Below are positions 4,711 through 55,333 of a DNA stretch of 64,000 bases, one piece after another. This DNA comes from Methylocystaceae bacterium (GTDB lineage: Bacteria > Pseudomonadota > Alphaproteobacteria > Rhizobiales > Beijerinckiaceae). Every line of letters begins with the position of its first letter. Position 1 is the first letter of the stretch. Below the pieces are notes generated by a model. That model worked only from the letters and a program-made list of their open reading frames with translations. It had not been told where the DNA came from and did not search any database. The stretch covers positions 1-64,000 of the forward strand of contig WSXZ01000003.1 in assembly GCA_009773555.1 (NCBI GenBank), in the 5' to 3' direction. A program made the position numbers and the translations under genes.

Positions 4711-6374
<1,664 letters not shown>

Positions 6375-6555
6375 CCACACAATGCATTGCGCATTGCGCC
6401 CGCCGCTCTAAACTGACGTCCAGCGCGTCAGGCGGCGGGCCGTGGGCGAGCGCTTCGCGAGAGAGCGACATCTCTCGGCCCGGAGAGCGCGGAACTAAAT
6501 TGCACGTCCGTGGGCCGTTCGCTCGACGGACCCACGCTCTTGCGGAGACCTGCAT

Positions 6556-35085: not shown

Positions 35086-35614
35086 CAGGCACGCTCCTGT
35101 CGCGCTGAGCGCTTTGAGTGTAAGGCCTGCGGGAGAGCCGATCTATGGCGGCAGCGCACGGAAGACGATACCGATTTTCGCCGTTCCACGCGCGCGACAC
35201 GAATTGCCGGCGCCAACCTACTGGCTCTGCTGAGTCTGGCGACGCGTAAGGTTGAGATTCGCCATTGTTGTTTCCGCTCGCCGCTAGGGTTACTTGTTCG
35301 GAGTGCTGTGGCTAGAATGCCACAACCGGCTGTAATTGCCAGCATCAAGCCCATTGACAGGCTGTTGCAAGGTGACCTGGCGTATCAAATGTCCAGGGAA
35401 ATCTTCGCCTCCAGAAGACTTCGATTTGGGACGGTCGATGCGTCGGAATGCGCCGCTTGCCGAATTCAGGAAATCCGACCCGCGCGAGGCGGTTTTCGGC
35501 TTTTCGATTCAACTCGGCGCGCGCGTCGGCCTTCGTGCATCGAAAATCTTTTCCCACCGGACTGATCTTAGATCCTTCGCCAGATTATTCCCCTGCCGTC
35601 TTCTAACTGTTTGT
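35086..35614. other. Unassigned region upstream of the TonB locus
   Basis: About 530 bases divergent between the response regulator and the TonB-receptor unit. Open frames occur on both strands (for example 35345-35557 minus, ending in TFDTPGHLATACQWA) but none is recognisable. Promoters and response-regulator sites are expected. It could include remnants of a mobile element; no terminal repeats were found. Confidence 0.35.
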
Positions 35615-35977
35615 TTGCAGCTTGCCGCGATCGCCCTCGTGCTGACGGTCGGCCCGCGCGATGCGATCGAATCTCGAGAGTATCGGGCAGTCGACAGCAG
35701 CCTGATGTCATCCACAGATACTGTAAATTGCAAGGCCCAGGCGGGCGACGAAGCCCCGACGCATCCGCGCCGTGGGCACGCTCAATGTTGCCTATCCTGT
35801 ACCGCAGGCGGGCGCGACCTTTTAGCTTTTCTCATCGCAAGCATTCACATCGCTGGTTATTGTTTCGCTCCTGCGGCTTACGGATTGGTCGCGTATTTCA
35901 CCCATCGCGAATTCTTTCCTCGCGTGCTGGGATGGGCCAGCAGTTGGTCCTCCCGCGCCCCTCCTGTGTCCCTCTGA
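35615..35977 (+). CDS. Possible small Cys/His-rich membrane protein upstream of the TonB receptor
   Basis: 120 residues if started at TTG 35615; the frame is open from 35336. A hydrophobic N-terminus (QLAAIALVLTVG) is followed by a polar loop with GHAQCCLSC, then a second hydrophobic stretch (LLAFLIASIHIAGYCFAP). Small proteins with a His-x-n-CCxxC loop between membrane segments (DUF2946-like) often sit beside TonB-dependent metal receptors, so a metal-related role is possible. Coding status is not secure. Confidence 0.4.
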   Translation: MQLAAIALVLTVGPRDAIESREYRAVDSSLMSSTDTVNCKAQAGDEAPTHPRRGHAQCCLSCTAGGRDLLAFLIASIHIAGYCFAPAAYGLVAYFTHREFFPRVLGWASSWSSRAPPVSL

Positions 35978-36057
35978 CCTGATCGCCTCCTCAAGGCAGG
36001 CCTAGCCACTCTCAGATCAAATCAGGAATGCGGTCCGCGCCGCATAAGGGGATACTC

Positions 36058-38481
36058 ATGTCCTTCAACACTCTATTGCGCGGCGTTTCCGCCAGCGCGG
36101 TCGCCCTCGTGTGCTGGTCGTCTATGGCCGAAGCGCAACAAAGTTTGCCTACTATCGACATCGGGGGCCGCACGACTGGAAAGCCCCAGCGCGCACAACT
36201 TTCGCGGGGCGCCTCGACGGGCGCGCCACAAGCCGCCGTTTCGCAACCGTCGCCGTCGCAGTCTGCGCCTCAGCCGCTCCTGGGGATTCCACGCCGGCAG
36301 GATAGCTACGTCGTCAAAACCACGTCCACCGCGACGAAGATGGCCATTCCAATGATCCAGCTTCCCGCCTCGGTGAAGGTCGTGCCAGGCGAAGTGATCC
36401 AGGATCAGAGCATAACCGACATCAAAGGCGCGCTCGAAAACGTCAGCGGCGTGCAATCGGCGCAGACGCAAGGCGGCAACGCCTCCTTCACTCGCATTCG
36501 CGGCTTCCAGACGCCGCGAATCTTCCGAAACGGATTATTGGCGGTGTCGCCGACCAACTTTACCGATTTCGGCACGTCGAACATCGAGAGAATCGAGGTG
36601 ATGAAAGGGCCGGACGCGATGCTCTACGGACGCAGCGATCCTGGCGGATTGATCAATCTCATAACGAAGCGCCCGATCGTCGATCGCATCCACATGGTCC
36701 AGCAGCGCTTTGGAAAGTATAACGACTATTTCACCGAATGGGATATGGCCGATTCATTGAACGCAGACAAATCTCTCTTCTATCGGTTCTCGGGCGGCTA
36801 TTTGAACACCGGCGGATTTGTCGATTTCAGCCGCGCCGAACGTGTGCATGTCAATCCGAGCGTCGCCTGGCATCCGGATGAGGATACGACCTTCGTGGCG
36901 GACGTCGAATATTACAATCAGGACTATAGGCCCACTCTCGGCCTGACCATCAATCCCTTCAATACCACGAGGCCGGCGGACGTTCCGGTTTCGCGCAACC
37001 TTGAAGGTCCGTACGTGCCGCTGTCCAATAACAACAACGTCTTTGTCGGATCGGAGTTCACGCACCGTTTCAACGACACGTTCACGTTCAAGCAGCGGTT
37101 TCTCGCGGCGTTCCTGCATCATGACGACGCCTACTCCAGTCATGCAGGCGTCGATGCGATAGGCAATGTCCTGAAGAATGCCTTCAGTCAGCAGAATGAC
37201 TCGGAAGTTTACGGAACCAATTTGGATCTGCTCGGGAATTTCGATTTTCTCGGCGCCCATCACGACACGCTGCTCGGATTCGACTATCAGCGCGTCCACT
37301 CGATATACGGCAATCAGGGGCGCTTTTTTCCGCCCAATCCTATGCTCACCGTCAATATGTACTATCCGTGGACCAGCAACATCTACACCTCGATCCCTAC
37401 AGCCTTTTATGACTGGCAACGCGTGTTCGACCGGCCCCGCTTCCTGAACGATCGCCAAGCGAACCTCTCGAACCAGGAAGGTTTCTACTTCCAGGATCAC
37501 ATCACGCTTCTGGACGGGAAAGTGCATATTCTCGGCGGCGGTCGCTTCGACTGGTTCTGGCAAGGCCAGGCGAGAGGCGCCACCGGCGACCTGGCGGAAT
37601 CCTACATCTACACTCAGCCCTATACCATCAGTCCCTTCGCCACCGGCAATCCCTTTTCCGCCGCCAATCGGCAATACACTTTCTTTGCGCCCACGCGTTT
37701 CGACTCGGCCTTCAGTCCGCGCGTCGGATTGCTTGTCCAGCCGGTTCCCTGGGCGAGTTTCTATGGAAGCTGGACGCAGGGGTTTGGACCGAACGTCAAC
37801 GCCTCGGTCGGCGCTGACCAATTCAATCGGCCCTTCGCGCCGGGGAAGAGCGAACAAATCGAAATCGGCGCCAAGGCGGAGTGGTTCGAGGGACGTCTGT
37901 TGACCACATTGGCGTTATACAACCTCACGAAGACGAATATTCCCGTGAGGGACATCACATCGCTGGATCCGACCGCGGTCGTCTTGGTCGGCGCGGCGCG
38001 CAGTCGGGGCATAGAACTCGACGCGACGGGGAAGATTCTCGACAATCTCAGCCTGATTAGCAGCTTCACCTATATGGACGCGCGCGTCACCCAGGACAAT
38101 AACACCGACCCTGTGACCACCACGCTCGGACGCCGCCTGATTGGCGTGCCGCGCTATCAGGGCAGCTTCTGGGCGAAATGGGACATTAAGGAGATTGCCG
38201 AGCTCGATGGGTTCAGTCTTGGGTTTGGCGTATTCGTGGTCGGCAACCGCCAGGGCGACGATCAGAGCACCTTCCAGCTGCCCGGCTATGTGCGGCTCGA
38301 TGCGATGGCCGCTTATAAGTTCAAGGTTATGGGCAACGAGGTGACCGCGCAGCTCAATCTGCGAAACCTCGCCAACACCCGATATTTCGAGTCTGTGGAC
38401 AACAACTTCTCCACGCCAAGACTCAGCATCTATCCAGGTGCGCCGTTCACGGCCTTCGGAACGGTTAGAGTTGCGTTTTAA
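36058..38481 (+). CDS. TonB-dependent siderophore-type outer-membrane receptor
   Basis: 807 residues from ATG 36058 (AAGGGG upstream). A signal peptide (VSASAVALVCWSSMAEA) is followed by a TonB-box-like start and a Pro/Gln-rich linker. The plug domain follows: NVSGVQSAQTQGG, FTRIRGFQTPRIFRNG, SNIERIEVMKGPDAMLYGRSDPGGLINLITKRP. A 22-strand barrel completes it, ending in aromatic Phe (GTVRVAF). It imports a metal chelate across the outer membrane using TonB energy. The chelate is unknown; methanotroph relatives include ferric siderophore and copper-methanobactin receptors. It is followed by a PepSY protein. Confidence 0.94.
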   Translation: MSFNTLLRGVSASAVALVCWSSMAEAQQSLPTIDIGGRTTGKPQRAQLSRGASTGAPQAAVSQPSPSQSAPQPLLGIPRRQDSYVVKTTSTATKMAIPMIQLPASVKVVPGEVIQDQSITDIKGALENVSGVQSAQTQGGNASFTRIRGFQTPRIFRNGLLAVSPTNFTDFGTSNIERIEVMKGPDAMLYGRSDPGGLINLITKRPIVDRIHMVQQRFGKYNDYFTEWDMADSLNADKSLFYRFSGGYLNTGGFVDFSRAERVHVNPSVAWHPDEDTTFVADVEYYNQDYRPTLGLTINPFNTTRPADVPVSRNLEGPYVPLSNNNNVFVGSEFTHRFNDTFTFKQRFLAAFLHHDDAYSSHAGVDAIGNVLKNAFSQQNDSEVYGTNLDLLGNFDFLGAHHDTLLGFDYQRVHSIYGNQGRFFPPNPMLTVNMYYPWTSNIYTSIPTAFYDWQRVFDRPRFLNDRQANLSNQEGFYFQDHITLLDGKVHILGGGRFDWFWQGQARGATGDLAESYIYTQPYTISPFATGNPFSAANRQYTFFAPTRFDSAFSPRVGLLVQPVPWASFYGSWTQGFGPNVNASVGADQFNRPFAPGKSEQIEIGAKAEWFEGRLLTTLALYNLTKTNIPVRDITSLDPTAVVLVGAARSRGIELDATGKILDNLSLISSFTYMDARVTQDNNTDPVTTTLGRRLIGVPRYQGSFWAKWDIKEIAELDGFSLGFGVFVVGNRQGDDQSTFQLPGYVRLDAMAAYKFKVMGNEVTAQLNLRNLANTRYFESVDNNFSTPRLSIYPGAPFTAFGTVRVAF

Positions 38482-38676
38482 GTTGGGGACCACGAAACTC
38501 CACTTTCAGGAGATGCGAATTCGAACGCAGTCCAAGGGGGCTCCGTCGTTCCTCGATAGGCTGAGAAGAGCCTGTCCTCTTAGCGCATGCGAGACGGCCG
38601 CTGACTGTTTCTGTAACGCTGCGGCGTCGCCATGCGCCGCAAGACCGCCAATCGCGCGACGCGCATAGGGGCCAAC

Positions 38677-40134
38677 ATGTCGACGACAATCGGTTCATGG
38701 GAAAAGATGGGATTGAACAGGCTCGATCAGGCCGCGTTCTACCGGATGATCTGGCGTTGGCATTTCTACGCCGGGCTCTTCTGCCTCCCCTTTGTAACCA
38801 TCCTCGCCTTGTCGGGATCGGTTTACCTTTTCAAGCCGCAGATCGACGCCTTTTTCGACCTGCCGTACAATCATATGCCCCTCTCTGCGCCGGCGCGCGG
38901 TCTCGACGATCAGGTCGCAGCGGCTCTCGCCGCGGTCCCGCGGTCTCGCATCAAGGGCCTCGAACTGCGCGACGATCCGACCGACGCCGCGCGCGTGCGT
39001 GTGGTCGACGCGCAGGGCCAGGAGCAACGCGTGCTGGTCCGTCCGGATACGTTGGAAATTCTGAAGGTCGACGCCGAGAAATGGCGTCTATCGACGCTGA
39101 TGCGTGACATTCATGGATCTATGCTCCTCGGCGATGCGGGCGCGATCGCGCTAGAACTTGCCGGGGCCTGGGCCATCGTGATGTTATTGACGGGGCTCTA
39201 TCTTTGGTGGCCGCGCAATTCGATTGGGATCGGCGGCGTATTATACCCGCGCAAGGGCCGTGCGTTCCTGCGCGATCTGCACGCAGTCACGGGACTCTAC
39301 GTTTCGTTCTTCGCATTGTTTCTGCTCGTCTCCGGATTGCCCTGGACAAAGGTCTGGGGCGAGGCCTTCCGCTGGTCTAAGGGGATCACGGCCCAGCAGC
39401 AGGTCAAAATGGACTGGACCACGGGGCCGAGTTCGGCGAAGGCGCAGCGTATGGCGGCCTATCAGGCCGCGCCTCAGGCGCTTGCCGAGGCGTCGAGCGC
39501 GCCTGACGCGCATGAAGGACATGAAGGACATGAAGGACATGTAGACCACGCCGCCATGAAGCAGGAGCGCTCGCCCTCGCGCATCGTTGGGTTCGACAGG
39601 GTCGCCGCGATCGCGCGAGACGCGCGTCTCGCCGAGCCCGTGATGCTGGCGCCGCCATCTCCCAAGAACCCGAATTGGCTGGTGCGTTCAGAGACGCAAA
39701 ATCGGCCTCTTCAGGAGACGTTGCATGTCGAGCCCAAAAGCTTTGATGTGATCAAGCGCGAAGACTTCTCTGGCAAGCCGCTCATCGACAAAGTCGTCGG
39801 CGTCGGAATCGCGGCGCATGAGGGTCATCTGTTCGGCGTCGCAAATCAGCTGCTCGGCCTTTTCACGGCTTTATCTTTTCTGACGCTCGTCGTGACGTCG
39901 GTCCTGATGTGGCTGCGGCGTCGCCCGATAGGCGCATTGGGCGCTCCGCCGGCGCTCGTGACGCCGCCGCGTCTGGCGCCTGCGCTCGTCTTGCTGATTT
40001 TGGCGATAGGCGTTTTTCTGCCTACCCTCGGCGTATCGCTCATCCTTGTTCTCGGCTTTGAAGCTACCGCGCGGCGCTTCCTGCCCGGCGTTTCACGATG
40101 GCTCGGGCTGACGCCGCGCGCCGCCCCGGTTTGA
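38677..40134 (+). CDS. PepSY-associated membrane protein with a His-rich insert
   Basis: 485 residues from ATG 38677. PepSY_TM pattern: YRMIWRWHFYAGLFCLPFVTILALSGSVYLFKPQID, DIHGSMLLGDAGAIALELAGAWAIVMLLTGLYLWWPR, LRDLHAVTGLYVSFFALFLLVSGLPW. Two further helices near the C-terminus follow GIAAHEGHLFGVANQLLGLF. Residues about 277-292 hold HEG repeats and nearby His and Met, a likely metal-binding loop. Such proteins accompany TonB receptors and are thought to reduce or release metals from chelates in the periplasm. Conserved membrane His fit heme or metal handling. Confidence 0.9.
   Translation: MSTTIGSWEKMGLNRLDQAAFYRMIWRWHFYAGLFCLPFVTILALSGSVYLFKPQIDAFFDLPYNHMPLSAPARGLDDQVAAALAAVPRSRIKGLELRDDPTDAARVRVVDAQGQEQRVLVRPDTLEILKVDAEKWRLSTLMRDIHGSMLLGDAGAIALELAGAWAIVMLLTGLYLWWPRNSIGIGGVLYPRKGRAFLRDLHAVTGLYVSFFALFLLVSGLPWTKVWGEAFRWSKGITAQQQVKMDWTTGPSSAKAQRMAAYQAAPQALAEASSAPDAHEGHEGHEGHVDHAAMKQERSPSRIVGFDRVAAIARDARLAEPVMLAPPSPKNPNWLVRSETQNRPLQETLHVEPKSFDVIKREDFSGKPLIDKVVGVGIAAHEGHLFGVANQLLGLFTALSFLTLVVTSVLMWLRRRPIGALGAPPALVTPPRLAPALVLLILAIGVFLPTLGVSLILVLGFEATARRFLPGVSRWLGLTPRAAPV
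39511..39540 (+). repeat. 9-bp tandem repeat coding His-Glu-Gly units
   Basis: CATGAAGGA occurs three times in exact tandem and continues as CAT, in frame with the PepSY gene, giving HEGHEGHEGH. Repeats of this kind can expand or contract in multiples of three residues and so change the number of metal-binding His. Confidence 0.9.
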
Positions 40135-43817: not shown

Positions 43818-44294
43818 CTACGCTCGAAACAGCAGATGGTCGAGGGAGATCGCGCCGGGCCCACGGGCGATCAACACGGTGAGGATCGCCATCCAATAGG
43901 CATGAACCGTCCACCATGCATCGGGATAGACGAAGATCTGGATGACGATTGTCATCGCCAGAAGAATCAACGCCGACAAGCGCGTCAAAAGCCCAAGCAC
44001 GAGCAGCAGCGGCAGGACGAATTCGAGGCCGCTCGCCACATAGGCGGCGGCGGTCGGCGAAATGAGCGGCAGTTTATATTCGTCGGCGAACAGCGCGAAG
44101 GTCGCGCTGCGCACGGCTGCCGGGATCTGGAACGACAGATCAAGGCCGAAAAATTCGCGGCCTAGAGTTGGTCCTTCAATCTTTGTCTGACCGGAGACGA
44201 AGAACGGATGCGCGGCGACGATCCGCAGAAACAGCGCGATCAGCGAGTAGGGGATTGCATCCAACCAGCGTGCGATCTTTCTTATGAAATTCAT
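43818..44294 (-). CDS. DoxX-family membrane protein of the bufferin operon
   Basis: 158 residues from ATG 44294 (GGAG upstream). DoxX pattern with four helices: LIALFLRIVAAHPFFVSGQTKIEG, AAAYVASGLEFVLPLLLVLGLLTRLSALILLAMTIVIQIFVYPDAWWTVHAYWMAILTVLIARGPG. DoxX-like genes are regular partners of bufABC operons. The role is unknown, possibly redox or quinone-related. It lies 58 bp after bufC. Confidence 0.9.
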   Translation of the reverse strand: MNFIRKIARWLDAIPYSLIALFLRIVAAHPFFVSGQTKIEGPTLGREFFGLDLSFQIPAAVRSATFALFADEYKLPLISPTAAAYVASGLEFVLPLLLVLGLLTRLSALILLAMTIVIQIFVYPDAWWTVHAYWMAILTVLIARGPGAISLDHLLFRA

Positions 44295-44352
44295 TGCGTT
44301 CAAGCTCCATCAATGATCGCTGCGGCCACGCCAAAACGCGTTTTTTTTGAGT

Positions 44353-45126
44353 TCAGTGCGCGACGCTGAGGGCCACGAAGGCTCCAGTCAAGAGAAGCTC
44401 GCGCAAGCAATCGATCAGTTTGAAATCCGCCGCGACGGCGGTCGCCGCGTTCATGGCCTCGCCGAAGGTTCTTCCGTTCCTGAGCGCGTCCACGAAAGCC
44501 GATCCGCCGACGGGAAGAGCCGCTACCTTGATCGCCAGCTCAGGACGAACGACAAGCGCCTCTTCGCCGTGGTCCAGCTCCACTGGCGTCATCTCGTCGT
44601 CCGACATGTGCCGTCGCCAGATCGAAACGATTGGATACGCGGACGCCACGACATGCGTCGAGGGATGCAGAACAGCCGTTGCGCTGTCTAGTCGCTCGTG
44701 TGGGAAGGCGCGCAGGAAATCCAATGGCAGCGGCGCGGCGTCAGCGGCGTGATAGGCGGCGCCCACGGCATATTCCAGCCGCGCGACGTCCGGAAGATAA
44801 GGAAGTTCGCGCGCCGGCTCAAATTCCGAAACGAATGCCGGAAACGCGTCGCCATACTCGAAAAGCATCGGCGTGCGCGGAAGGCGCTCGCGGACATAGC
44901 ATTGCGCCATAGCGCGAAAAAATTCATCGCCGACCAACTGCGCGCAAATTGGAAAGCGCTCCGCCAGCGCGTCGACCAGTCCGACGCACACATTGTTGCG
45001 ATAGACGGCGAACCGTCGCTCTGGCGGAAAGCCGCCGGGGGTTTCGAGCTCGTTGGGCGGCGGCAGCTCTGGCTCGAGCAGCGCGCGGACAAATGCGGCT
45101 TGATCGACGTCAGCCGAGGTCGTCAT
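44353..45126 (-). CDS. bufC: BufC, DUF2063 partner protein of the MNIO maturase
   Basis: 257 residues. N-terminal DUF2063 pattern: DQAAFVRALLEPELPPPNELETPGGFPPERRFAVYRNNVCVGLVDALAERFPICAQLVGDEFFRAMAQCYVRERLPRTPMLFEYGDAFPAFVSEF. A second domain follows, with LDHGEEALVVRP. In bufferin systems BufC helps BufB recognise and modify the precursor peptide. Its start overlaps the bufB end by 17 bases. Confidence 0.92.
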   Translation of the reverse strand: MTTSADVDQAAFVRALLEPELPPPNELETPGGFPPERRFAVYRNNVCVGLVDALAERFPICAQLVGDEFFRAMAQCYVRERLPRTPMLFEYGDAFPAFVSEFEPARELPYLPDVARLEYAVGAAYHAADAAPLPLDFLRAFPHERLDSATAVLHPSTHVVASAYPIVSIWRRHMSDDEMTPVELDHGEEALVVRPELAIKVAALPVGGSAFVDALRNGRTFGEAMNAATAVAADFKLIDCLRELLLTGAFVALSVAH

Positions 45127-46036
45127 GAAGCGCCTCCGATTTTAAGCCATCTTCAACAACACGCCGCCGCCTTTCAAGGAACGCCTCCGCTTGCGTGGCT
45201 TGCGCCAAGAGGGTCGGCCAGGAGGGAACGTCATTGTCCCATTCGATCAGCGTCGCGACCGGTCCGCATCGCGCCAGCGCGCGATCATAGAGTCGCCAAA
45301 CCGCGTCAGCGACGGGCGCGCAATGCGCGTCGATCAGCAGAGGCGCGGCGACTTCATCGACATCCTCGGCATATCCGGCAAGATGAATCTCTTCGACGTA
45401 GGACATCGGGAAGGCGTCGATATAGTCCTCCGCCGAATAAGCGAGGTTCGTTGCGCTGACATAGACGTTGGTTACGTCGAGCAGCAGCCGGCAGTCCGTG
45501 CTGCGCACCACCTCGCGCAGGAATTCGATCTCCGAATATTCCGAGGATCGGAACCGCAGATAGGCCGCTGGGTTTTCGAGGAGGATCGGCCTGCCGAGCG
45601 CCTCCTGGAGCTCATCCACATGAGCGACGACATGCGCCAATGTCGTCGCGTTATAGGGCAGGGGCAGCAAGTCGTTGAGAAATCGCGCGCCCAGCGTCGA
45701 CCAGGCGAGATGTTCGGAGAACGCGGCCGGGTCATAGCGATCGACGAGCGTCTTTAGGCGGCCAAGATGCTCGCGGTCGAGGGGTTCAGCGCCGCCGACG
45801 GAAAGGCCGACGCCATGGATCGAGAGCGGCGAATCTTTACGCAAACGCATCAGCTGCGCATGCGGAGTGCCGCCGGCGCCCATGTAATTCTCGGCGTGGA
45901 TTTCGAAAAAACCGACATCGCGCGCCTCGGCCTCGATCTCGGCGAGATGCACGCTCTTGAAACCGACTCCCGCGCGGGCGGGCAGCGAGGACGCTGCGCG
46001 CTCACGGCGATGTTCGGGGGCGGAATGCGCGCCCAT
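45110..46036 (-). CDS. bufB: BufB, DUF692 multinuclear iron oxidase (MNIO) that matures bufferin
   Basis: 308 residues. TIM-barrel MNIO family with metal-binding His/Asp/Glu in typical places: FFEIHAENYMGAGG, LSIHGVGLSVGG, FSEHLAWS, ILLENPAAYLRF, LLLDVTNVYVSATN, EIHLAGYAED, LLIDAHCAPV, TLIEWDNDVPSW. MNIOs convert Cys residues of precursor peptides into modified thiol-derived heterocycles. In Caulobacter BufB treats BufA so that it binds copper. It is 7 bp downstream of bufA1 and overlaps bufC. Confidence 0.95.
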   Translation of the reverse strand: MGAHSAPEHRRERAASSLPARAGVGFKSVHLAEIEAEARDVGFFEIHAENYMGAGGTPHAQLMRLRKDSPLSIHGVGLSVGGAEPLDREHLGRLKTLVDRYDPAAFSEHLAWSTLGARFLNDLLPLPYNATTLAHVVAHVDELQEALGRPILLENPAAYLRFRSSEYSEIEFLREVVRSTDCRLLLDVTNVYVSATNLAYSAEDYIDAFPMSYVEEIHLAGYAEDVDEVAAPLLIDAHCAPVADAVWRLYDRALARCGPVATLIEWDNDVPSWPTLLAQATQAEAFLERRRRVVEDGLKSEALHDDLG

Positions 46037-46043
46037 GCCGGCC

Positions 46044-46322
46044 TCAGTGCGAAATCGGCTCGAGGCTGCCCTTGCCCTTGGGCGTCACGATAGACGTGCA
46101 CGTGCCCTTGGGAACATATTTCCATGCGTCGCCTTGATAATTGGTCTTTGACGTTCCCGCGCAGCTGGTTCCCGGGCCTGCCGCACAATCATTCTTGCCC
46201 TTCAGGGAGACGCCGAAGCACTTTTCCTGGTCGTTCGCGGCCTTCGCCGTTTCCGCCAGAGCGACAGCCGTCGCGAAGGCGCCGGCGATCGCAAAGGCGG
46301 CGCAAAGCTTCTTGTCCGACAT
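46044..46322 (-). CDS. bufA1: BufA1, bufferin-1 precursor peptide (DUF2282)
   Basis: 92 residues from ATG 46322 (GGGAGA upstream). A signal sequence ([21 protein letters not shown]) is followed by the DUF2282 core with four Cys: [24 protein letters not shown] and YVPKGTC (C35, C46, C54, C75). It is the substrate of BufB; mature bufferin chelates copper in the periplasm. The C-terminal tail ([17 protein letters not shown]) is longer than the common short family ending. First gene of bufA1-bufB-bufC-doxX, behind a SigF-type promoter. Confidence 0.95.
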
Positions 46323-46430
46323 TCTGATCTCCCTCTGCTTGCGTCCGATCATCCATAAAGGAGCAATCGGTTGAACCTGACGTATTTGGCGTGCAATTCA
46401 AGACGACCGTTCGCCGTCTCAAGGGTCAAT

Positions 46431-46456
46431 TTCGTCGCGACGGCGTCAAAGGTTAC
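46431..46456 (-). promoter_or_regulatory. SigF-type promoter of the bufA1 operon
   Basis: On the minus strand GTAACC (46456-46451), exactly 16 bases, then CGAA (46434-46431). This equals the Caulobacter SigF consensus GTAACC-N16-CGAA. The wider match to the bufA2 element includes GGCTGTAACCTT and GCGACGAA. It lies about 110 bp upstream of the bufA1 start, leaving a leader of roughly 100 nt. Confidence 0.88.
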
Positions 46457-46552
46457 AGCCGAAAGCGTTCATCGAAAACTACGAAAAAGTCGAGTAGGGT
46501 GAGATGGCGCGCGGACGCTTGATCGATTAGAGCTGGCAGATTCGCAGCGGAC

Positions 46553-47128
46553 ATGAGCGAATTGAGCGATACGTCGAACGATCGGGAAAGTCGGTGGCGC
46601 GCGCTGATGACATCGGCGCAGGACGGCGATCATGCCGCGTATGGCGAGCTCTTGTCAGATCTTTTTCCCGTTTTGCGCCGGTTCGTCGTGCGAAAATGGC
46701 CGAACGCGCATGACACGGAAGACGTGGTTCAGGAAATCCTGGTGTCCATTCACACGGTGCGCCAGACCTATGATCGCCGGCGTCCGTTTACGCCCTGGCT
46801 GATGACCATCGCGGCGCGGCGCGTCGCCGACGCCGCACGTAGTCGTTACGCACGAGGCGCCAACGAAACGACGGTCGATATTTTGCCTGAAACCTTTGAC
46901 GGCGACGGCGCGAACTCCGAACAAGAGACGACGGACGATCGCGAGGCGCTTCGCAGAGCCATGGCGATCCTGCCGGCTGGCCAGCGCCAGGCGATTGAAC
47001 TGGTCAAGATACAAGGTCTTTCGCTGGACGAAGCGTCTCAGGTCACGGGGAAGAGCGTCGGTTCGCTGAAAGTCGGAATCCATAGAGCCATCAAAGCGAT
47101 GCGGCAGGCCCTGGAGCGGATTGGCTAA
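46553..47128 (+). CDS. sigF: ECF sigma factor, SigF-like
   Basis: 191 residues. Region 2: LLSDLFPVLRRFVVRKWPNAHDTEDVVQEILVSIHTVRQTYDRRRPFTPWLMTIAARRVADAARSR. Region 4: ALRRAMAILPAGQRQAIELVKIQGLSLDEASQVTGKSVGSLKVGIHRAIKAMRQAL. It is directly followed by its NrsF-type anti-sigma gene, as in Caulobacter sigF-nrsF. It is divergent from the bufferin operon. Two copies of the SigF promoter consensus are nearby; none was found in front of sigF itself. Confidence 0.93.
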   Translation: MSELSDTSNDRESRWRALMTSAQDGDHAAYGELLSDLFPVLRRFVVRKWPNAHDTEDVVQEILVSIHTVRQTYDRRRPFTPWLMTIAARRVADAARSRYARGANETTVDILPETFDGDGANSEQETTDDREALRRAMAILPAGQRQAIELVKIQGLSLDEASQVTGKSVGSLKVGIHRAIKAMRQALERIG

Positions 47129-47132
47129 GCGG

Positions 47133-47816
47133 ATGTTGAACCGAGACCTGATCGAAACTCTGACCGCCAATTGCGCGCCCATACGCCCGCTCGCGCATCC
47201 GGCGTGGCGCGCGCTCGTTTGGTTTGCGGTTTCGCTCTGTTATGTCGCGATCGTGGTGGCGGCGATGGGGGTGAGGCCCGACTTTGTCGCCAAGATCGCC
47301 GACCCGCAGTTTGCGACGGAATTGGCTGCGGCGTTCCTGACGAGCGTCGTGGCCGCAGCGGGCGCCTTCAGCGCGGGCTGTCCGGCGCGCCCGATGTGGG
47401 AACGGTTCGTCGCCGGATTGTTCTTCTTGCTCTGGGCAGGCGCGCTTGCCGTTGGATGCTGGAGGGACGTCAACGCCTTCGGCGTGTCCGGTCTCCTGTC
47501 GCATTCGGACATCTATTGCCTGCCCACCATTCTCGCCATCAGCATCCCGGCGGCGGTATTGATCCTGTCGATGGTCAAGCGCGGCGCGCCCATTGCGCCA
47601 TTCGTGACGATTGGACTTGCCGCTCTCGCATCGACGGCCCTGGCGGCGGCGGCGCTACGTCTGTCTTTCAGACAGGACGCGGCAGTGTCGGTCTGCATCT
47701 GGCAGTTCGGTTCCGTCGTCCTGCTGACGGGAATCGCTTCGCTGTTCGGCCGGGCGCTCCTGCACTGGACCATGCGCGACGAGTTGATCGCGTCGTTTCA
47801 AGCGCATCGCCGCTGA
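47133..47816 (+). CDS. nrsF: NrsF-type anti-sigma factor (DUF1109), membrane protein
   Basis: 227 residues from ATG 47133, 4 bp after sigF. Six membrane helices with short loops (from ALVWFAVSLCYVAIVVAAMG to VVLLTGIASLFGRALL). Cys129 (SDIYCLP) and Cys188 (VSVCIWQ) are placed like the two Cys that Caulobacter NrsF needs to sense metal stress. It holds SigF at the membrane until a signal arrives. Family and mechanism follow established work on SigF/NrsF; the Cys correspondence is judged by spacing only. Confidence 0.92.
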   Translation: MLNRDLIETLTANCAPIRPLAHPAWRALVWFAVSLCYVAIVVAAMGVRPDFVAKIADPQFATELAAAFLTSVVAAAGAFSAGCPARPMWERFVAGLFFLLWAGALAVGCWRDVNAFGVSGLLSHSDIYCLPTILAISIPAAVLILSMVKRGAPIAPFVTIGLAALASTALAAAALRLSFRQDAAVSVCIWQFGSVVLLTGIASLFGRALLHWTMRDELIASFQAHRR

Positions 47817-47895
47817 CGACGGCTCTTCTTGGCTGAGGAAATCGCCGGCCGGCGCGGAACGGACGAAGAAAACGCATCCGTCCGCGCCGCTTGGC

Positions 47896-48162
47896 TTACA
47901 TCTCGGCGATCTTGCCGCCCTTCGCCTCGCAAGCCGCTGCTGATTTTTCAGGCAACCACCCCTGACCCTTGCATGAGTTCATGCCCTTGCAGGCGTTGTT
48001 CGCGGTCTTGCAGAGGCTCGTCCCCTTGCAGGAATTGATTCCGGCGCAGTGGACAGACTTGCTCATTTTTTTGGCGAGCGCCGGCGCGGGCGCCCCGCCG
48101 CTCAGAACCAGGGCGATCGCCGCGGCGGCCATTGAGGCGCCCGAAACGCTTTTGACGTTCAT
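47896..48162 (-). CDS. bufA2: BufA2-like bufferin precursor peptide, without its own bufBC
   Basis: 88 residues from ATG 48162 (AAGGAG six bases upstream; an ATG six bases earlier overlaps the SD). A signal peptide (ASMAAAAIALVLSGGAPAPALA) is followed by a Cys-rich core: HCAGINSC, GTSLCKTANNACKGMNSCKGQGW and AAACEAKGG. The repeated C-K-G-x-x-x-C units match the BufA2 peptide group, which MNIO enzymes modify for copper binding. No bufB2 or bufC2 follows: its neighbour downstream is convergent nrsF. The BufB at 45110-46036 may serve it. Confidence 0.9.
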   Translation of the reverse strand: MNVKSVSGASMAAAAIALVLSGGAPAPALAKKMSKSVHCAGINSCKGTSLCKTANNACKGMNSCKGQGWLPEKSAAACEAKGGKIAEM

Positions 48163-48228
48163 TTCCATCTCCTTGAAAATCTGCTCGCGGACGAGCGTTC
48201 CAGGTTCACGGGGAACCTACGGACGCTA

Positions 48229-48254
48229 TTCGTCGCCGCTACGAATAAGGTTAC
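48229..48254 (-). promoter_or_regulatory. SigF-type promoter of bufA2
   Basis: On the minus strand GTAACC (48254-48249), exactly 16 bases, CGAA (48232-48229). It shares GGCTGTAACCTT and GCGACGAA with the element before bufA1. The distance to the bufA2 start is about 67 bp. Confidence 0.88.
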
Positions 48255-48500: not shown

Positions 48501-50312
48501 GTGTATCCACCCCTCCGCGGCTTTTTGCGCCGCTGCCATGAACAGTTCGCCGCCGATGATTCCGGCGCGGTCGCCAATTACATTCCGGAATTGACGAGGG
48601 CCAACCCAGCGCATTTCGGCGTCAGCCTCGCAACGATCGACGGCCATGTCTATGAAGTCGGCGACAGTTCCACGCCGTTTACGATTCAGTCGATATCGAA
48701 GGCCTTTGTATTCGCGCTCGCCCTCGAAACGCTTGGCCACGAGCGCGTCGAGTCGGTGATCGGCGTCGAGCCTAGCGGCGAAGCTTTCAATTCGATTCGA
48801 CTGACGGGCGACAACAAGCCGTTCAATCCCATGGTCAACGCTGGAGCGATCGCCTGTTCCGGTTTGATCCATCAGCATGAAGGCGACGGCGCTTTTGACC
48901 TCATCCATCGGACGCTGAGCCGCTTCGCAGGACGCGAACTCGACGTCGACGAAGCGGTGTTCGCCTCGGAACGCGCGACCGGCGACAGGAACCGCGCTAT
49001 CGCCTGGCTGCTTCGTAATTATTCGGTGCTCGGCGACGACGTCGACGCCGTCCTGGACGTCTATTTTCGTCAATGCGCCGTGCTCGTCACCGCGCGCGAT
49101 CTGGCGGTCATGGCGGCGACGTTGGCCAACTGCGGCCGCAACCCGCTCACCGGCGAGCAGATCATTTCCTCTTACGTCGTGGCGCGCACGCTCTCGGTGA
49201 TGACGAGCTCCGGCATGTACGACTATGCCGGCGAGTGGATCTATCGGGTGGGAATTCCCGCAAAGAGCGGGGTCGGCGGCGGAATCATCGCCGCCCTTCC
49301 GGCGCAACTGGGGCTCGGCACCTTTTCGCCGCGGCTCGACAGTCATGGCAACAGCGTCCGCGGTCTAAAGGTCTGCGAGGCGCTATCGGCGCATTTCGGA
49401 TTGCATGTGCTCAATCGCAGCGACGATGTGCGCACCTGCATCATTAGCGATTACAACGCAGCCGGTGTTTCCTCGCGCCGCAACCGACAGAATTTCGAGC
49501 TGGCGATTCTTCAGGAGCGCGCAAGCGACATTCGGGTGATCGAACTCGTCGGCGCGCTCTCATTCGCCGCAATGGACTACGTCTCGCGCAGGCTGGATGG
49601 CGAAGGGCCGCCAGGCGAGCTGCTGATTTTGGACTTTCGACGCGTTCCGAGCGCGACGACCGCCGCTGCGCGACTCCTGGCGGAAGCGCTCGCTGGCCTC
49701 GCCGCCCGCGGCGTCACCCTCATCGTCGCCGGCTTTGAAAAGGCGTCGCAGCTCTGGCAGGCGATACACGCAGAGCGCAACGTTCTGCCGAAGTTGCGTC
49801 ATTTTTCGCTGCTCGACGACGCAATCGAATGGGCCGAAGATCAGGTGATCTATCGCTATGGCGGCTTCGAAGGCCTGGCCAAGACGACCCATCTCAGCGA
49901 ACAAGCGCTGCTCGCTGGTCTGTGTTCGGATGAAATAGACCACATCGCGGCGATCGGGCTCGCGCGTGCTTTCAAAACCGGCGAGCGGATCATCGCCGCC
50001 GGAGATCCCGCGGCCTCGCTGTTCTTTCTGCAAAGCGGCATGGTCAGCGTGAAACTGCGCAGCGGCGCGCGATTGGCGTCGATCTCGCCGGGCATGGCAT
50101 TCGGCGAGATGGCGCTCATCGAACGCGAGCGCAGCGCAGACGTGTGGGCCGACACGGCGGTGCAGTGCCTCGAATTGCCGCTGAGCGCCTATGCTTCGTT
50201 TCGCAAGAGCCATCCAGCAAGCGGAGAGCTGATCATGCGAAATCTCGCAGCGTTATTGGCAAGGCGCCTGGTGCTTGCAAACGCCAAAGTCGACCTGCTC
50301 AGCGCCTATTGA
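48501..50312 (+). CDS. glsA: Glutaminase fused to STAS and cyclic-nucleotide-binding domains
   Basis: 603 residues, GTG start with GGAGA upstream. Residues 1-310 are a serine-dependent glutaminase: IPELTRANPAHFGVSLATIDG, catalytic Ser-x-x-Lys in FTIQSISKAF, FNPMVNAGAIA, and AKSGVGGGIIAALP. Residues about 330-440 form a STAS domain (ERASDIRVIELVGALSFAAMDYVSRRL and GELLILDFRRV). Residues about 465-585 are a cAMP/CRP-like domain (LARAFKTGERIIAAGDPAASLFFLQSGMVSV and FGEMALIERERSADVWAD). Hydrolysis of glutamine may thus be regulated by a ligand or partner. No DNA-binding helix was seen. Confidence 0.92.
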   Translation: MYPPLRGFLRRCHEQFAADDSGAVANYIPELTRANPAHFGVSLATIDGHVYEVGDSSTPFTIQSISKAFVFALALETLGHERVESVIGVEPSGEAFNSIRLTGDNKPFNPMVNAGAIACSGLIHQHEGDGAFDLIHRTLSRFAGRELDVDEAVFASERATGDRNRAIAWLLRNYSVLGDDVDAVLDVYFRQCAVLVTARDLAVMAATLANCGRNPLTGEQIISSYVVARTLSVMTSSGMYDYAGEWIYRVGIPAKSGVGGGIIAALPAQLGLGTFSPRLDSHGNSVRGLKVCEALSAHFGLHVLNRSDDVRTCIISDYNAAGVSSRRNRQNFELAILQERASDIRVIELVGALSFAAMDYVSRRLDGEGPPGELLILDFRRVPSATTAAARLLAEALAGLAARGVTLIVAGFEKASQLWQAIHAERNVLPKLRHFSLLDDAIEWAEDQVIYRYGGFEGLAKTTHLSEQALLAGLCSDEIDHIAAIGLARAFKTGERIIAAGDPAASLFFLQSGMVSVKLRSGARLASISPGMAFGEMALIERERSADVWADTAVQCLELPLSAYASFRKSHPASGELIMRNLAALLARRLVLANAKVDLLSAY

Positions 50313-50652: not shown

Positions 50653-50834
50653 GTGGTTAGCTCCTCCGTCCGGAGGCGGCAGTTTGCGCGTTTCGGCAAA
50701 GCTTGGCAACGCTGGGCGGGAGAGGCGCTGCACAGCGCGATTCGCCTTCCGCTAGCGCTGTCCTTACTGCGTGCCAGCGTTATGCGCCGGTCAAGAATGG
50801 CCGGTTCAATGCGAACGTCAAAACCGGAGGTGAG

Positions 50835-52031
50835 ATGCTGTTGACTTTTGTGGCGACGCGCGGCGGCGATGGTCACGGGAGAGTCGCAAGCGCATTGTTT
50901 AAAACGCTCGCGGCATTGGTGTTTCTCGCCCAATCAGCGGGGGCGCGCGCAGAGGGTCCATCCCCCGAAGTGGTTGTCTCCCGCCCGCTCGCCAGGACGA
51001 TTCCGCGCTGGGACGAATATACGGGTCGTTTCGAGGCCTTGAAGCAGGTCGAGGTGCGCGCCCGCGTCTCCGGCGCTCTGGAGAAGATCAATTTCACCGA
51101 TGGGCAGTTCGTTAAAGCCGGCGACGTCCTTTTCGTCATCGATCAGCGGCCGTATCAGATCGCGGTCGACAGCGCCCGTGCGGAACTCACGCGGGCGCAG
51201 GCGCAAGCCGTGGCGTCGATCCGCGATTATGCACGCGCTCAGGAAATGACGCAGGGTCGCACCATCACCGCGCGCGACGTCGATCAGCGCAAAGCGAGCA
51301 ATGATATCGCCAGGGCGCAGGTTTTGAGCGCCGAAGCCGCGCTTCGCAACGCGGAACTCAATCTGGAATGGACGCAGGTCCGCGCGCCGATCGCCGGGCG
51401 CGTGTCGGACCGTCGCGTCGATTCGGGCAATCTCGTTCAGGGCGGACAGGCGGATGCGACTTTGCTCACGACGATCGTGACGCTCGATCCCATTCACTTC
51501 ATCTTCGACGCCTCCGAGGCCGACTACATTCGCTATGCGCGCTCTGCGGAGCGCCAGAAAGAAAATTCGCGCCAGTTTAAAAATCGCGTTTCGGTGCGGC
51601 TTGCCGACGAGACCGAGTGGACCCGCAGCGGCGTCATGGACTTCATGGACAATCAGCTCAATCGGCGCTCCGGCACGATCCGCGGCCGGGCCGTCTTCGA
51701 CAACAAGGACTATTTTCTGACGCCCGGCACGTTCGGGCGCCTGCGCCTGTTCGGCGGCGACGTCTCCGCGCTGCTCATTCCCGATGCTTCCGTCGTCTCC
51801 GATCAGACGAGCAAGACCGTGCTTGTCGTGTCCGACGACAACAAGGTCATCGCCAAATCGGTGAGTCTCGGCCCCATTCACAATGGTCTGCGTGTGATCC
51901 AATCCGGCCTCGACGCGAAGGATCGGATCGTGATCGGCGGGCTCGCAAATCCAATGGTTCGATCCGGCGCGACCGTTCAGCCCAAGGAAGGCGAAATCAA
52001 GGAAGCGCCAGTCGCGGTCAGCGACCGCTAG
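50835..52031 (+). CDS. RND efflux periplasmic adaptor (membrane fusion protein)
   Basis: 398 residues from ATG 50835 with GGAGG. N-terminal hydrophobic segment (ALFKTLAALVFLAQSAGARA) for export. Adaptor pattern: YTGRFEALKQVEVRARVSGALEKINFTDGQFVKAGDVLFVIDQRPYQI (lipoyl-like), coiled-coil helices with AQEMTQGRTITARDVDQRKASND, then LNLEWTQVRAPIAGRVSDRRVDSGNLV. It connects the RND pump encoded next to an outer-membrane channel that is not in this window. Confidence 0.94.
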   Translation: MLLTFVATRGGDGHGRVASALFKTLAALVFLAQSAGARAEGPSPEVVVSRPLARTIPRWDEYTGRFEALKQVEVRARVSGALEKINFTDGQFVKAGDVLFVIDQRPYQIAVDSARAELTRAQAQAVASIRDYARAQEMTQGRTITARDVDQRKASNDIARAQVLSAEAALRNAELNLEWTQVRAPIAGRVSDRRVDSGNLVQGGQADATLLTTIVTLDPIHFIFDASEADYIRYARSAERQKENSRQFKNRVSVRLADETEWTRSGVMDFMDNQLNRRSGTIRGRAVFDNKDYFLTPGTFGRLRLFGGDVSALLIPDASVVSDQTSKTVLVVSDDNKVIAKSVSLGPIHNGLRVIQSGLDAKDRIVIGGLANPMVRSGATVQPKEGEIKEAPVAVSDR

Positions 52032-52051
52032 ACGTCGAGATCAGGAACCCT

Positions 52052-55000
52052 ATGCGCATTTCGCACTTCTTCATCGAGCGGCCGATCTCTGCGGCGGTGC
52101 TTTCCGTGCTTCTGACGCTTGCGGGAGCGATTGCGCAAGGCGCGCTTCCCGTCTCCGAATATCCGGAGATCGCGCCGCCGACGGTGAATATCAGCGCCAC
52201 CTATCCCGGCGCGTCGGCGGACGTGATCGCCGAGACTGTGGCGTCGCCCATCGAGCAGGAGGTCAATGGCGTCGACGACATGCTCTACATCACGTCGCAA
52301 TCGACAGGCGACGGACGCGTGTCGATCGACGTCGTGTTCAAGCCGGGCGTCAATATCGATCTCGCGCAGGTGCTTGTTCAGAACCGCGTCGCCATCGCCA
52401 ATCCGCGCTTGCCGGAGGAGGTGACGCGCTTCGGCGTCGTCGTGAAGAAAGCCTCGCCGGATCTGATGATGGTCGTCCATCTGCTGTCGCCCGACGGCTC
52501 GCGCGACCAGCAATATATTTCAAATTACGCGACGCTTTACGTGAAGGACGCCATCGCCCGAATCGACGGGGTCGGCGACGCGCGCCTCTTTGGCGCGAGA
52601 GACTATTCGATGCGCGTCTGGCTCGATCCGGCGAAAGTCGAGGCGCGCGATCTGACGGCGGGCGACGTCATCGCCGCGCTGCGCGGAGCCAATCTGCAAG
52701 TCGCCGCGGGCGCGGTCAATCAGCCGCCGGCGGCCTCGGCGGGCGCCTTCCAGCTTTCGGTGCAGACTCTGGGACGGCTCAGCACGCCGGAGCAATTCGG
52801 CGACATCGTCATCCGCGCCGACGCCGACGGCCAGATTTATCTGCGCGACATCGCGCGCATCGAATTCGGCGCGCAGGATTATACGCTCAACGCCTATCTC
52901 AACCACGACGTTGCGACGGCGCTCGGCATCTTTCAGCGTCCCGGCTCGAACGCCTTACAAACCGCCGAAGCCGTCAAGCAGGAGATGGAGCGGCTCAAGA
53001 AGAACTTCCCTGCCGGCGTCGATTACACGGTCGTCTACAACCCCACCGAATTCATCCAGCAGTCGGTGGACGAAGTTGTCCATACGCTGCTCGAGGCCAT
53101 CGTCCTCGTCGTCCTCGTCGTCATCCTGTTCCTGCAGACGTGGCGCGCGGCGATCATTCCCGTCGCGGCGATCCCGGTGTCGCTGATCGGCAGCTTCGCC
53201 GTGATGAAGGCCGCCGGCCTCAGCTTCAACACGCTCTCGCTCTTTGGTCTGGTGCTCGCCATCGGCATCGTCGTCGACGACGCGATCGTCGTCGTGGAGA
53301 ATGTCGAGCGCTATCTCGCGCAAGGGCTCTCGCCCAAGGAAGCCGCGCACAAGACCATGGATGAAGTCGGCGGGGCGCTGATCGCGATCGCGCTCGTGCT
53401 CTGCGGCGTGTTCATCCCGACCGCCTTCATCAGCGGCTTGCAAGGCGCCTTCTATAAGCAGTTCGCCATCACCATCGCGAGCGCCACGCTGATCTCAGCC
53501 TTTGTTTCGCTGACGCTGTCGCCGGCGCTGGCGGCGATGTTGTTGAAGCCGCATGATGTGGAGGAGGAGGAGAAGACGCATCGGCTGAGCTGGGCGCATG
53601 CGCCGCTTCGGCGCTTCTTCGACGCCTTTAATTCTGTGTTCGACAGGGTGTCGACGGCATATGGCGCGGCGACGGGCCGCCTCGTGCGGCTTGGCGTCGT
53701 CATGCTCGCCGTCTATGCGATCCTCATCTTTTTCGCCTTCGATCTGCTGCGCCGAACGCCGACCGGCCTTATTCCGCAACTCGATCGCGGCTATGTGATC
53801 GCCGCTTTCCAATTGCCGCCCGGGGCGACGCTCGATCGCACGGATAAGGTCATGCGTGCGGCGACCGACATTATTTTGAAACGTGCGGGCGTGAAGGACG
53901 CCGTCGTTTTCACCGGCTTCGATGGCGCGACATTCACCAATGCGCCGAACACCGGCGTGATCTTCGTCACGCTGGAGGCCTTCGAAGAACGTGCGAAAAA
54001 GGGGCTGTCCTCCGCGCAGATCCAAGCCGACCTTTACGGCCAATTGTCCAAGCTGAACGACGCCTTCGTCTTCGTGCTGGCGCCGGCGTCGGTTCCTGGC
54101 ATCGGCACCGGCGGCGGCCTTAAGGGCTATGTGCAGGATCGCGCCGGGCGTGGACTTCCCGCGCTCGAAGGCGCGACGTGGGCGCTGGCCGGCGCGGCCG
54201 GTCAGTCGGGAGAATTTACTCAGGCGTTCACGCTGTTCAACACGCGCACGCCGCAAATCTTCGCCGACGTCGATCGCACGAAGGCCGAACTCATCGGCGT
54301 GCCGATCTCGCGCGTTTTCGAGACGCTTTCGGTCTATCTTGGCTCGACCTTCGTCAACGACTTCAATGTCCTTGGACGCACCTACCGCGTCATGGCGCAG
54401 GCGGATGATCCTTTTCGCCTGACGCTGCGCGACATCGCCAATCTAAAGACCCGCAGCGCCTCGGGCGCGATGGCGCCGATCGGCGCGGTGGCCACCTTCC
54501 GCGACGCGACGGGGGCGTTCCGCGTGCCGCGCTACAATCTCTATCCGGCCGCCGAGGTGCAGCTCAATCTCGCGCGCGGCGTCTCCTCGGGCCAGGGCAT
54601 CGCGGCGGTCGAGAAGCTCGCGGCGGAGAAGCTGCCGCAGGGATTCGGCTTCGAATGGACCGAAATCGCCCTGCAGGAGAAGCTTGCCGGAAACACCGCG
54701 GCCGTCGCCTTTGGCCTCGCGGTGGTGTTCGTCTTTCTGCTGCTCGCCGCGCTGTATGAGAGCCTGCTGCTGCCGGTTTCGGTGATCCTCATCGTGCCGA
54801 TGTGCATTCTCGCGGCGATGCTCGGGGTCGTCTCACGGGGGCTCGATCGCAACATATTGGTCGAGATCGGGCTGGTCGTGTTGATCGGCCTCGCGGCGAA
54901 GAACGCCATCCTCATCGTCGAATTCGCCAAACAGGCGGAAGACGCCGGCCAATCCAAATTCGACGCCGCCGTCACCGCGGCCCGCACGCGGCTTCGGCCC

Positions 55001-55333
55001 ATTTTGATGACGTCGCTGGCGTTTATTCTCGGCGTGCTGCCGCTCGCCGTTGCGCAGGGCGCCGGCGCCGAAATGCGTCAATCCATCGGCACGGCGGTGT
55101 TTTTCGGCATGCTCGGCGTGACGCTGTTTGGCCTCGCGTTCACGCCGACCTTTTACGTGGTCGTACGCATCTTCGCGCGATATTTCCAGTCGGGGAGCGC
55201 CCGCGAGTCCACGCCGGCGGCCGCAAGGTCTGGCGAGAGTTTCGCGCAAGAGATCGGCTTGCACGAAGCAAAAAAGATTAATCTGGGCCGAGCCAAGAGG
55301 TGGCTCGACGACCTTCGGCGCAGGCTTCAATGA
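52052..55333 (+). CDS. RND multidrug efflux transporter, HAE-1 type
   Basis: 1093 residues from ATG 52052. Twelve-helix RND pump: FFIERPISAAVLSVLLTLAGAIAQGALPVSEYPEIAPPTVNISATYPGASADVI, NGVDDMLYITSQS, GIVVDDAIVVVENVERYL (proton-relay Asp pair in helix 4), and VLIGLAAKNAILIVEFAKQAEDAG. The C-terminus is longer than usual by about 40 residues with a charged tail. Substrate unknown. Separated by 20 bp from its adaptor gene. Confidence 0.95.
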   Translation: MRISHFFIERPISAAVLSVLLTLAGAIAQGALPVSEYPEIAPPTVNISATYPGASADVIAETVASPIEQEVNGVDDMLYITSQSTGDGRVSIDVVFKPGVNIDLAQVLVQNRVAIANPRLPEEVTRFGVVVKKASPDLMMVVHLLSPDGSRDQQYISNYATLYVKDAIARIDGVGDARLFGARDYSMRVWLDPAKVEARDLTAGDVIAALRGANLQVAAGAVNQPPAASAGAFQLSVQTLGRLSTPEQFGDIVIRADADGQIYLRDIARIEFGAQDYTLNAYLNHDVATALGIFQRPGSNALQTAEAVKQEMERLKKNFPAGVDYTVVYNPTEFIQQSVDEVVHTLLEAIVLVVLVVILFLQTWRAAIIPVAAIPVSLIGSFAVMKAAGLSFNTLSLFGLVLAIGIVVDDAIVVVENVERYLAQGLSPKEAAHKTMDEVGGALIAIALVLCGVFIPTAFISGLQGAFYKQFAITIASATLISAFVSLTLSPALAAMLLKPHDVEEEEKTHRLSWAHAPLRRFFDAFNSVFDRVSTAYGAATGRLVRLGVVMLAVYAILIFFAFDLLRRTPTGLIPQLDRGYVIAAFQLPPGATLDRTDKVMRAATDIILKRAGVKDAVVFTGFDGATFTNAPNTGVIFVTLEAFEERAKKGLSSAQIQADLYGQLSKLNDAFVFVLAPASVPGIGTGGGLKGYVQDRAGRGLPALEGATWALAGAAGQSGEFTQAFTLFNTRTPQIFADVDRTKAELIGVPISRVFETLSVYLGSTFVNDFNVLGRTYRVMAQADDPFRLTLRDIANLKTRSASGAMAPIGAVATFRDATGAFRVPRYNLYPAAEVQLNLARGVSSGQGIAAVEKLAAEKLPQGFGFEWTEIALQEKLAGNTAAVAFGLAVVFVFLLLAALYESLLLPVSVILIVPMCILAAMLGVVSRGLDRNILVEIGLVVLIGLAAKNAILIVEFAKQAEDAGQSKFDAAVTAARTRLRPILMTSLAFILGVLPLAVAQGAGAEMRQSIGTAVFFGMLGVTLFGLAFTPTFYVVVRIFARYFQSGSARESTPAAARSGESFAQEIGLHEAKKINLGRAKRWLDDLRRRLQ

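Follow-up and report, generated by a model that had tools for sequence, protein, structure and literature searches.

A sigma-F-type bufferin locus of a Methylocystis genome with altered NrsF cysteines and a Buf2 precursor that is probably matured in trans

The window analysed here, a stretch of 64,000 nt (positions 1–64,000 of WSXZ01000003.1) from an assembly of 144 contigs (labelled G000), contains a Caulobacter-like bufferin locus that has a sigma/anti-sigma pair of its own; by analogy with Caulobacter, the mature peptides of the locus would carry copper-binding thiooxazoles derived from cysteines. All seven genes that a preliminary description of this DNA had placed here are present and supported by profile matches, and the layout it gave, a bufA1-bufB-bufC-doxX operon with a divergent sigF-nrsF pair and bufA2 on the far side, is borne out. 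The operon lies on the minus strand and begins with bufA1 (46044..46322), which encodes a DUF2282 (Buf1) precursor (PF10048 87.9 bits, cut-off 22.4) with a Sec-type signal peptide, as judged by eye, and five cysteines, of which one falls within the signal region; the four conserved cysteines of a Buf1 peptide are present. It continues with bufB (45110..46036) for an MNIO maturase of the Buf1 type, which reads EWDND around the catalytic Asp (NF050167 370.2 bits, cut-off 310), and with bufC (44353..45126), which overlaps bufB by 17 bp and encodes the DUF2063/RRE-type partner (PME type 1) of the maturase (PF09836 89.9 bits, cut-off 27.2), and ends with doxX (43818..44303; PF07681 52.2 bits, cut-off 23.6). 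The DUF2063 partner and DoxX are both recognised by Pfam, the NCBIfam scores for HvfC and HvfX being below their cut-offs. On the plus strand, the gene of the extracytoplasmic function (ECF) sigma factor, sigF (46553..47128; TIGR02937 69.9 bits, cut-off 42.9, with PF08281/PF04542), is followed, as in other SigF-NrsF layouts, by the gene of a PF06532 membrane protein, the anti-sigma factor nrsF (47133..47816; 81.9 bits, cut-off 26.8), whose start is likely the ATG at 47133 and whose product scores 24.6 bits on the NCBIfam equivalog AntiSigF_NrsF (NF042994), the cut-off of which is 300. Past nrsF, again on the minus strand, bufA2 (47896..48162) encodes a Buf2 precursor (NF050166 97.4 bits, cut-off 60) with a signal peptide (also judged by eye) and a domain of six cysteines, four of which stand in Cys-Lys. 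Its start at 48162, as already described, is better than that of the longer open reading frame (ORF) at 48168, because the M. suflitae counterpart (L020) lacks the upstream ATG.

The sigma-F promoter of Caulobacter is reported as GTAACC-N16-CGAA (PMC3511200). A search of the 64 kb for this pattern with spacers of 14–18 nt gave two matches that the preliminary description does not mention, both with N16 and thus exact: GTAACCTTTGACGCCGTCGCGACGAA (46431..46456, minus strand) before bufA1, as a sigma-F-type promoter for bufA1BC-doxX, and GTAACCTTATTCGTAGCGGCGACGAA (48229..48254, minus strand) before bufA2. From shuffles 0.20 matches are expected, and two were reached in one of 100 shuffles; since loci within one genus are non-independent, shuffle and Fisher values overstate the certainty here and below. 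The bufA1 site is kept in L018–L022, and the bufA2 site in L018, L019, L020, L022 and L132, the locus of genome G135. Furthermore, the relaxed pattern GTAACN-N16-CG[AT]A precedes 45 of 108 bufA1 genes (shuffle mean 0.12) and 17 of 52 bufA2 genes (shuffle mean 0.02), with a sharp peak at N16, other spacings giving 0–2 matches except for N15 (4 bufA1, 6 bufA2). Matches in reverse orientation, 33 before bufA1 and one before bufA2, in the former case fit a promoter of the divergent sigF. Since the N16 motif precedes 17 of the 52 bufA2 genes and 13 of these have no NrsF in the fetched flanks, sigma-F is suggested to reach many Buf2 operons in trans, a relation that would be invisible to surveys of neighbouring genes. 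As a genome-wide regulon finder the exact pattern was rejected: with N15–17 it gave nine matches in G000 against 35 of the reversed control, and with N16 across 12 genomes 34 against 68. Behind the seven other G000 matches no buf-like or obvious copper gene was seen by eye (one had no ORF shown); outside G000 the fetched matches, which do not include three of G135, were checked only for buf and sigF relatives, with downstream ORFs read for four.

The core of the locus, bufA1-bufB-bufC-doxX with sigF-nrsF, is ordinary. Of 528 relatives the best 80 were kept, and in 37 of these 80 loci a sigF relative is found close to the Buf1 genes. Judged by name, most of the 37 are not methanotroph loci; they include Rhizobium, Ciceribacter, Shinella and Bradyrhizobiaceae, none of them known as methanotrophs. 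Caulobacter itself has the same layout and promoter, with sigF (CC3253) and nrsF (CC3252) beside CC3254–CC3257, a DUF2282-DUF692-DUF2063-DoxX series (PMC3511200), and its sigF regulon is described as copper-induced and the sigF::Tn5 mutant as copper-sensitive (PMC8224329). Sigma and NrsF genes are also named among the frequent neighbours (PMC12452194). The compact arrangement, which the preliminary description had singled out as notable, is therefore shared widely, and the unusual features lie elsewhere: unlike the Caulobacter system, the window locus includes a Buf2 gene preceded by a separate sigma-F-type promoter, its NrsF lacks the equivalent of C181, and no sigma-F-type self-promoter was found before sigF. 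The gene-order comparison in Methylocystis that the same description had proposed came out in its favour, as Methylocystis sp. H62, sp. L43, M. suflitae, a metagenome-assembled genome (L018, L019, L020 and L022, respectively) and G135 of the same genus all have this order and both promoters. In M. silviterrae (L021, ~5900–6600) two alignment gaps remove sigF and bufA2, the beginning of nrsF and the greater part of a glutaminase gene, while bufA1BC-doxX and its sigma-F site are kept; this is a natural loss of the regulator at the locus (sigF elsewhere in that genome was not sought). G000 has a second bufA1-bufB-bufC-doxX operon on C103, without a sigma-F motif upstream.

The NrsF protein of the window differs from that of Caulobacter in its sensor cysteines. 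In Caulobacter, C131 and C181 are the sensor cysteines; mutants are reported to show that both matter, and exchange of C181 raised basal expression (PMC3511200). Among 51 NrsF sequences compared, seven window-like and 44 others (residues counted from 47136, giving one fewer than from 47133), the first of these cysteines is present in all 51. By contrast, the second is absent from all seven window-like sequences, which have Phe (six, including the window) or His (one), and present in 43 of the 44 others. Exactly the eight sequences without it, the seven window-like ones and L161, have a cysteine 20 positions ahead of the first sensor cysteine, at the opposite end of the loop that holds the latter and is flanked by two hydrophobic stretches. 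The PF06532 scores differ as well, with 82 bits for the window, 89 for G135 and 98 for G114 compared with 175–185 for six other NrsF proteins (12 genomes searched). Likewise, a sigma-F-type promoter within 450 nt upstream of sigF was found for none of the seven window-like sigF genes (at least 60% identical) versus 38 of 45 others (Fisher p 2.6e-5, not corrected for relatedness), and L161 sides with the window-like group here too; this count includes L037, L041, L049, L050 and L062 and leaves out two duplicate genomes. With the second cysteine gone, a new one in the first loop and no self-activating promoter found before sigF, the switch should respond differently from that of Caulobacter. More tentatively, and with more doubt than confidence, we propose a distinct Methylocystis class of SigF-NrsF, in which the redox/metal sensor, formerly a cysteine pair in two loops, now sits at either end of a single loop facing the periplasm (C109 and C129, counted from ATG 47133), positive autoregulation has been lost, and two chemically different copper peptides are commanded at once; the enzyme for one of them would be the local one, and for the other a remote one that also serves a His-rich bufferin of the methanotroph lineage. 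For the mechanism of metal sensing by NrsF, a lineage that dropped one cysteine and gained another elsewhere offers a ready-made natural comparison.

The second unusual feature is the placement of bufA2. A survey of 149 family and 385 class genomes gave 52 BufA2 genes over the cut-off on 49 stretches, 27 from the family (the window and 26 more) and 22 from outside it, with flanks of ~5 kb or shorter at contig ends. A Buf2-type MNIO gene adjoins BufA2 in 15 of the 27 family stretches and 20 of the 22 others, so that 12 family loci are orphans. The window holds such a case: its BufA2, with 97.4 bits on NF050166 and six cysteines, is like the products of Buf2 (Buf_6/12Cys, Cys-Lys) operons, but no MNIO or partner gene, the usual though not universal Buf2 neighbours, stands beside it, and sigF-nrsF does. 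NrsF was found near BufA2 in four of the 27 family stretches (window, G135, G114 and G089, all of the host genus) and in none of the 22 outside, and section 14 of a survey from 2025 states that sigma/anti-sigma genes were not found in Buf2 clusters (PMC12452194). There may nevertheless be a precedent for a Buf2 gene under sigma-F in C. vibrioides, for which a Buf2 is mentioned (PMC12452194); NF050166 had no match in 14 control genomes including Caulobacter vibrioides. All six cysteines and the four Cys-Lys pairs of BufA2 are kept in the five relatives examined. A fuller form of the locus is seen in L136 (G114:C2:151000-162000), which combines the Buf1 operon, a divergent bufA2-MNIO-partner series and a window-like sigF-nrsF; that genome also has an exact sigma-F site in front of an ORF that, by eye, looks DsbA-like. 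G000 itself has a further BufA2 match on C51 (G000:C51:21137-21304), 67% identical to bufA2, with an internal stop and no in-frame start with a signal peptide; it is read as a remnant, was left out of the survey, and has a PepSY-like ORF (by eye) nearby.

Which enzyme would mature BufA2 can be approached from the four MNIOs found in this genome, namely window BufB, the Buf1-linked enzyme on C103, a TIGR04222 fusion on C21 and an enzyme on C33. In a tree of 47 rows, one branch (22 rows, 100/98) sets off the Buf1-linked MNIOs, and another (24 rows, 97/85) those linked to Buf2 or His-rich precursors together with that of G105; the His-type enzymes as one clade gave p-AU 0.271. The MNIO of G105 (L171, no precursor found within 900 nt) and that of C21 (L100) are in the tree and belong to no label group. 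The residue after the catalytic Asp is given as Phe in Lys-Cys enzymes, as Asp in Cys-Lys (Buf2) enzymes and as not conserved in DUF2282 enzymes (PMC13097082, section 14). Our choice of alignment column is supported by PDB 3BWW, which reads ERDF at the aligned position and was taken as of the Lys-Cys kind from this reading, not from PMC13097082. At this position all 22 Buf1-linked enzymes have Asn (19), Ser, Gly or Ala (one each), and all 23 Buf2- or His-linked enzymes have Asp or Glu (Buf2: 14 Asp, one Glu; His: eight Asp), the motifs being EWDND in window BufB, ERDDN on C33, ERDGK on C103, ERDEK on C21 and ERDNN in G105. Because of both the tree and the active-site residue, window BufB is of the Buf1 type and the C33 enzyme of the Buf2 type. 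The occurrence of the genes agrees with this division: BufA2 exceeds the cut-off in 19 of the 149 family genomes, all 19 of which have an MNIO at least 61% identical to that of C33 (with an internal stop in G033), and only one of the 130 without BufA2, G105, has such an enzyme. Two genomes, G017 and G146, have only an orphan BufA2 and a single MNIO match (E<=1e-20), which is of the C33 type. On the tree, the residue, the co-occurrence and these two genomes, BufA2 is probably matured in trans by the C33 Buf2-type enzyme, which is the best reading, albeit unproven. A methanobactin locus was also considered and rejected; MbnB belongs to the same MNIO superfamily, but the window precursors have signal peptides, and BufB scores 47.8 bits on TIGR04159, for which the cut-off is 325. 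The C21 gene (G000:C21:23968-24774) encodes an MNIO fused to a TIGR04222 membrane domain, and a radical-SAM-like ORF, by eye, lies nearby.

The C33 locus (C33:58377-59240 and upstream, L099) consists of a His/Cys-rich Buf2-like precursor, the Buf2-type MNIO and a partner. As in Buf2 systems, the MNIO exceeds the NF050167 cut-off (376.7 bits) and has Asp at the Cys-Lys position; unlike BufA2, the precursor, a signal-bearing peptide of 76 residues with six Cys and ten His, is far below the NF050166 cut-off (13.8 bits, cut-off 60) and has no sigma-F site within 400 nt upstream. Ten MNIOs, the C33 enzyme included, are at least 75% identical to it: eight follow a His/Lys/Cys-rich peptide, that of G089 follows a BufA2, and for that of G105 no precursor was found. 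A canonical BufA2 precedes 14 further MNIOs that are 61–71% identical. Within the family, the His-rich peptide is found at eight of the 24 places of Buf2-type MNIOs, all in g1 and g42 (Methylocystis, Methylosinus), and of the eight genomes concerned seven have PmoA, the eighth being G000. A gene similar to that of a formaldehyde-activating enzyme adjoins the C33 locus.

The whole is best explained, and in our judgement rather probably so, by a sigma-F-controlled bufferin locus of the Caulobacter type in a rewired Methylocystis form, with BufA2 matured in trans. The membrane-bound NrsF would hold SigF until its cysteines on the periplasmic side are attacked by copper in excess, or by some other thiol-reactive metal, and SigF is freed to fire two promoters, one for bufA1-bufB-bufC-doxX and one for the single gene bufA2. 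Before export, BufB and BufC would turn BufA1 cysteines into copper-binding thiooxazoles, while BufA2, presumably not a substrate of the neighbouring BufB, would be modified by the C33 MNIO and its partner, and both peptides may then bind copper in the periplasm and buffer it there. For sensing, modification and copper binding we rely on analogy with Caulobacter, and these, like trans maturation and buffering, are what we infer rather than observe. Several observations weigh against this explanation. The relaxed sigma-F motif was found within 400 nt before none of the eight His-rich precursors, so that SigF would not raise the remote enzyme together with bufA2, and that enzyme seems to be under other control. 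The co-occurrence of BufA2 with the enzyme is partly trivial, the two being adjacent in 15 of 27 family loci, and the presence of the C33 enzyme could be explained by its own precursor. The C21 MNIO has Glu at the selectivity position and is set apart by the tree alone, on a long branch; moreover, FonB F250D is reported to have still worked on its substrate (PMC13097082), so that the residue indicates a preference and is not proof. For the promoters, the exact N16 pattern is genome-wide no commoner in G000 than its reversed control (five versus six), so that only position and conservation argue for sigma-F sites. An initial contrast between orphan and MNIO-adjacent bufA2 genes in having an exact promoter (4 of 14 versus 0 of 38, Fisher p 0.0037) dissolved once the sixth base of the -35 element was freed, and the promoter was rejected as a mark of orphans, the contrast being an artefact of that base. 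BufA2 could thus be unmodified or made by window BufB.

Of these two, maturation by the neighbour is the stronger alternative, though we regard it as unlikely. Here BufB and BufC of the window would modify both BufA1 and BufA2, which would explain why bufA2 has stayed next to their genes and shares the sigma factor. Indeed, linkage and a shared promoter type keep bufA2 and bufB together in L018, L019, L020, L022 and L132, window BufB has a sigma-F site and the C33 enzyme none, and tandem precursor genes are taken as a hint that some MNIOs accept more than one substrate (PMC12452194, section 14). However, window BufB has Asn at the selectivity position and groups with the Buf1-type enzymes, G017 and G146 have an orphan BufA2 and no match of a Buf1-type MNIO, and L136 of G114 pairs bufA2 with its own Buf2-type enzyme despite the bufB present there. 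That BufA2 is an unmodified metal-binding peptide, a simple thiol buffer free of enzyme control, appears improbable: 12 of the 27 family loci are orphans, and for precursors away from MNIO genes, modification elsewhere or none is said to be possible (PMC12452194), but the six cysteines and four Cys-Lys pairs are conserved and a Buf2-type enzyme accompanies BufA2 in 19 of 19 genomes.

The host genus is Methylocystis, since bufB is 89–91% identical to that of four named Methylocystis genomes, and the methanotroph-like setting noted earlier thus holds. The role in pMMO biogenesis that was suggested from it, by which the locus would serve pMMO assembly through delivery or guarding of copper for methane oxidation, is compatible with any reading of maturation. 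In its favour are the methanotrophic genus and the His-rich precursor beside a Buf2-type MNIO in seven of ten PmoA genomes (among the 139 others only in G000), but it is unsupported and very improbable, since the core locus is present in many non-methanotroph genera, two of the ten PmoA genomes (G017 and G105) have no NrsF match, PmoA and PmoB were not found here, and the His-rich link, which belongs to a different locus, is confounded with membership of the two genera. The PmoA and PmoB profiles gave no match in this 144-contig assembly, where a gap, possibly through a collapsed duplicate operon, may account for it; the PmoA search works, as it found matches in 10 of the 149 family genomes, four of them of the host genus, and the PmoB profile was run on this assembly only. 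Among the matches listed in a literature search, which covered subscription journals poorly, there was no report of bufferins or NrsF in methanotrophs.

On one side of the locus, the window contains at 33050-40134 a two-component system, a TonB-dependent receptor (36028-38481) and a PepSY_TM protein with a His-rich stretch (38632-40134), which are possibly concerned with metal uptake. On the other side, an RND efflux pair of an HlyD-type and an AcrB-type protein is encoded at 50703-55333, downstream of the gene for a glutaminase-STAS-cNMP protein (48501-50312).

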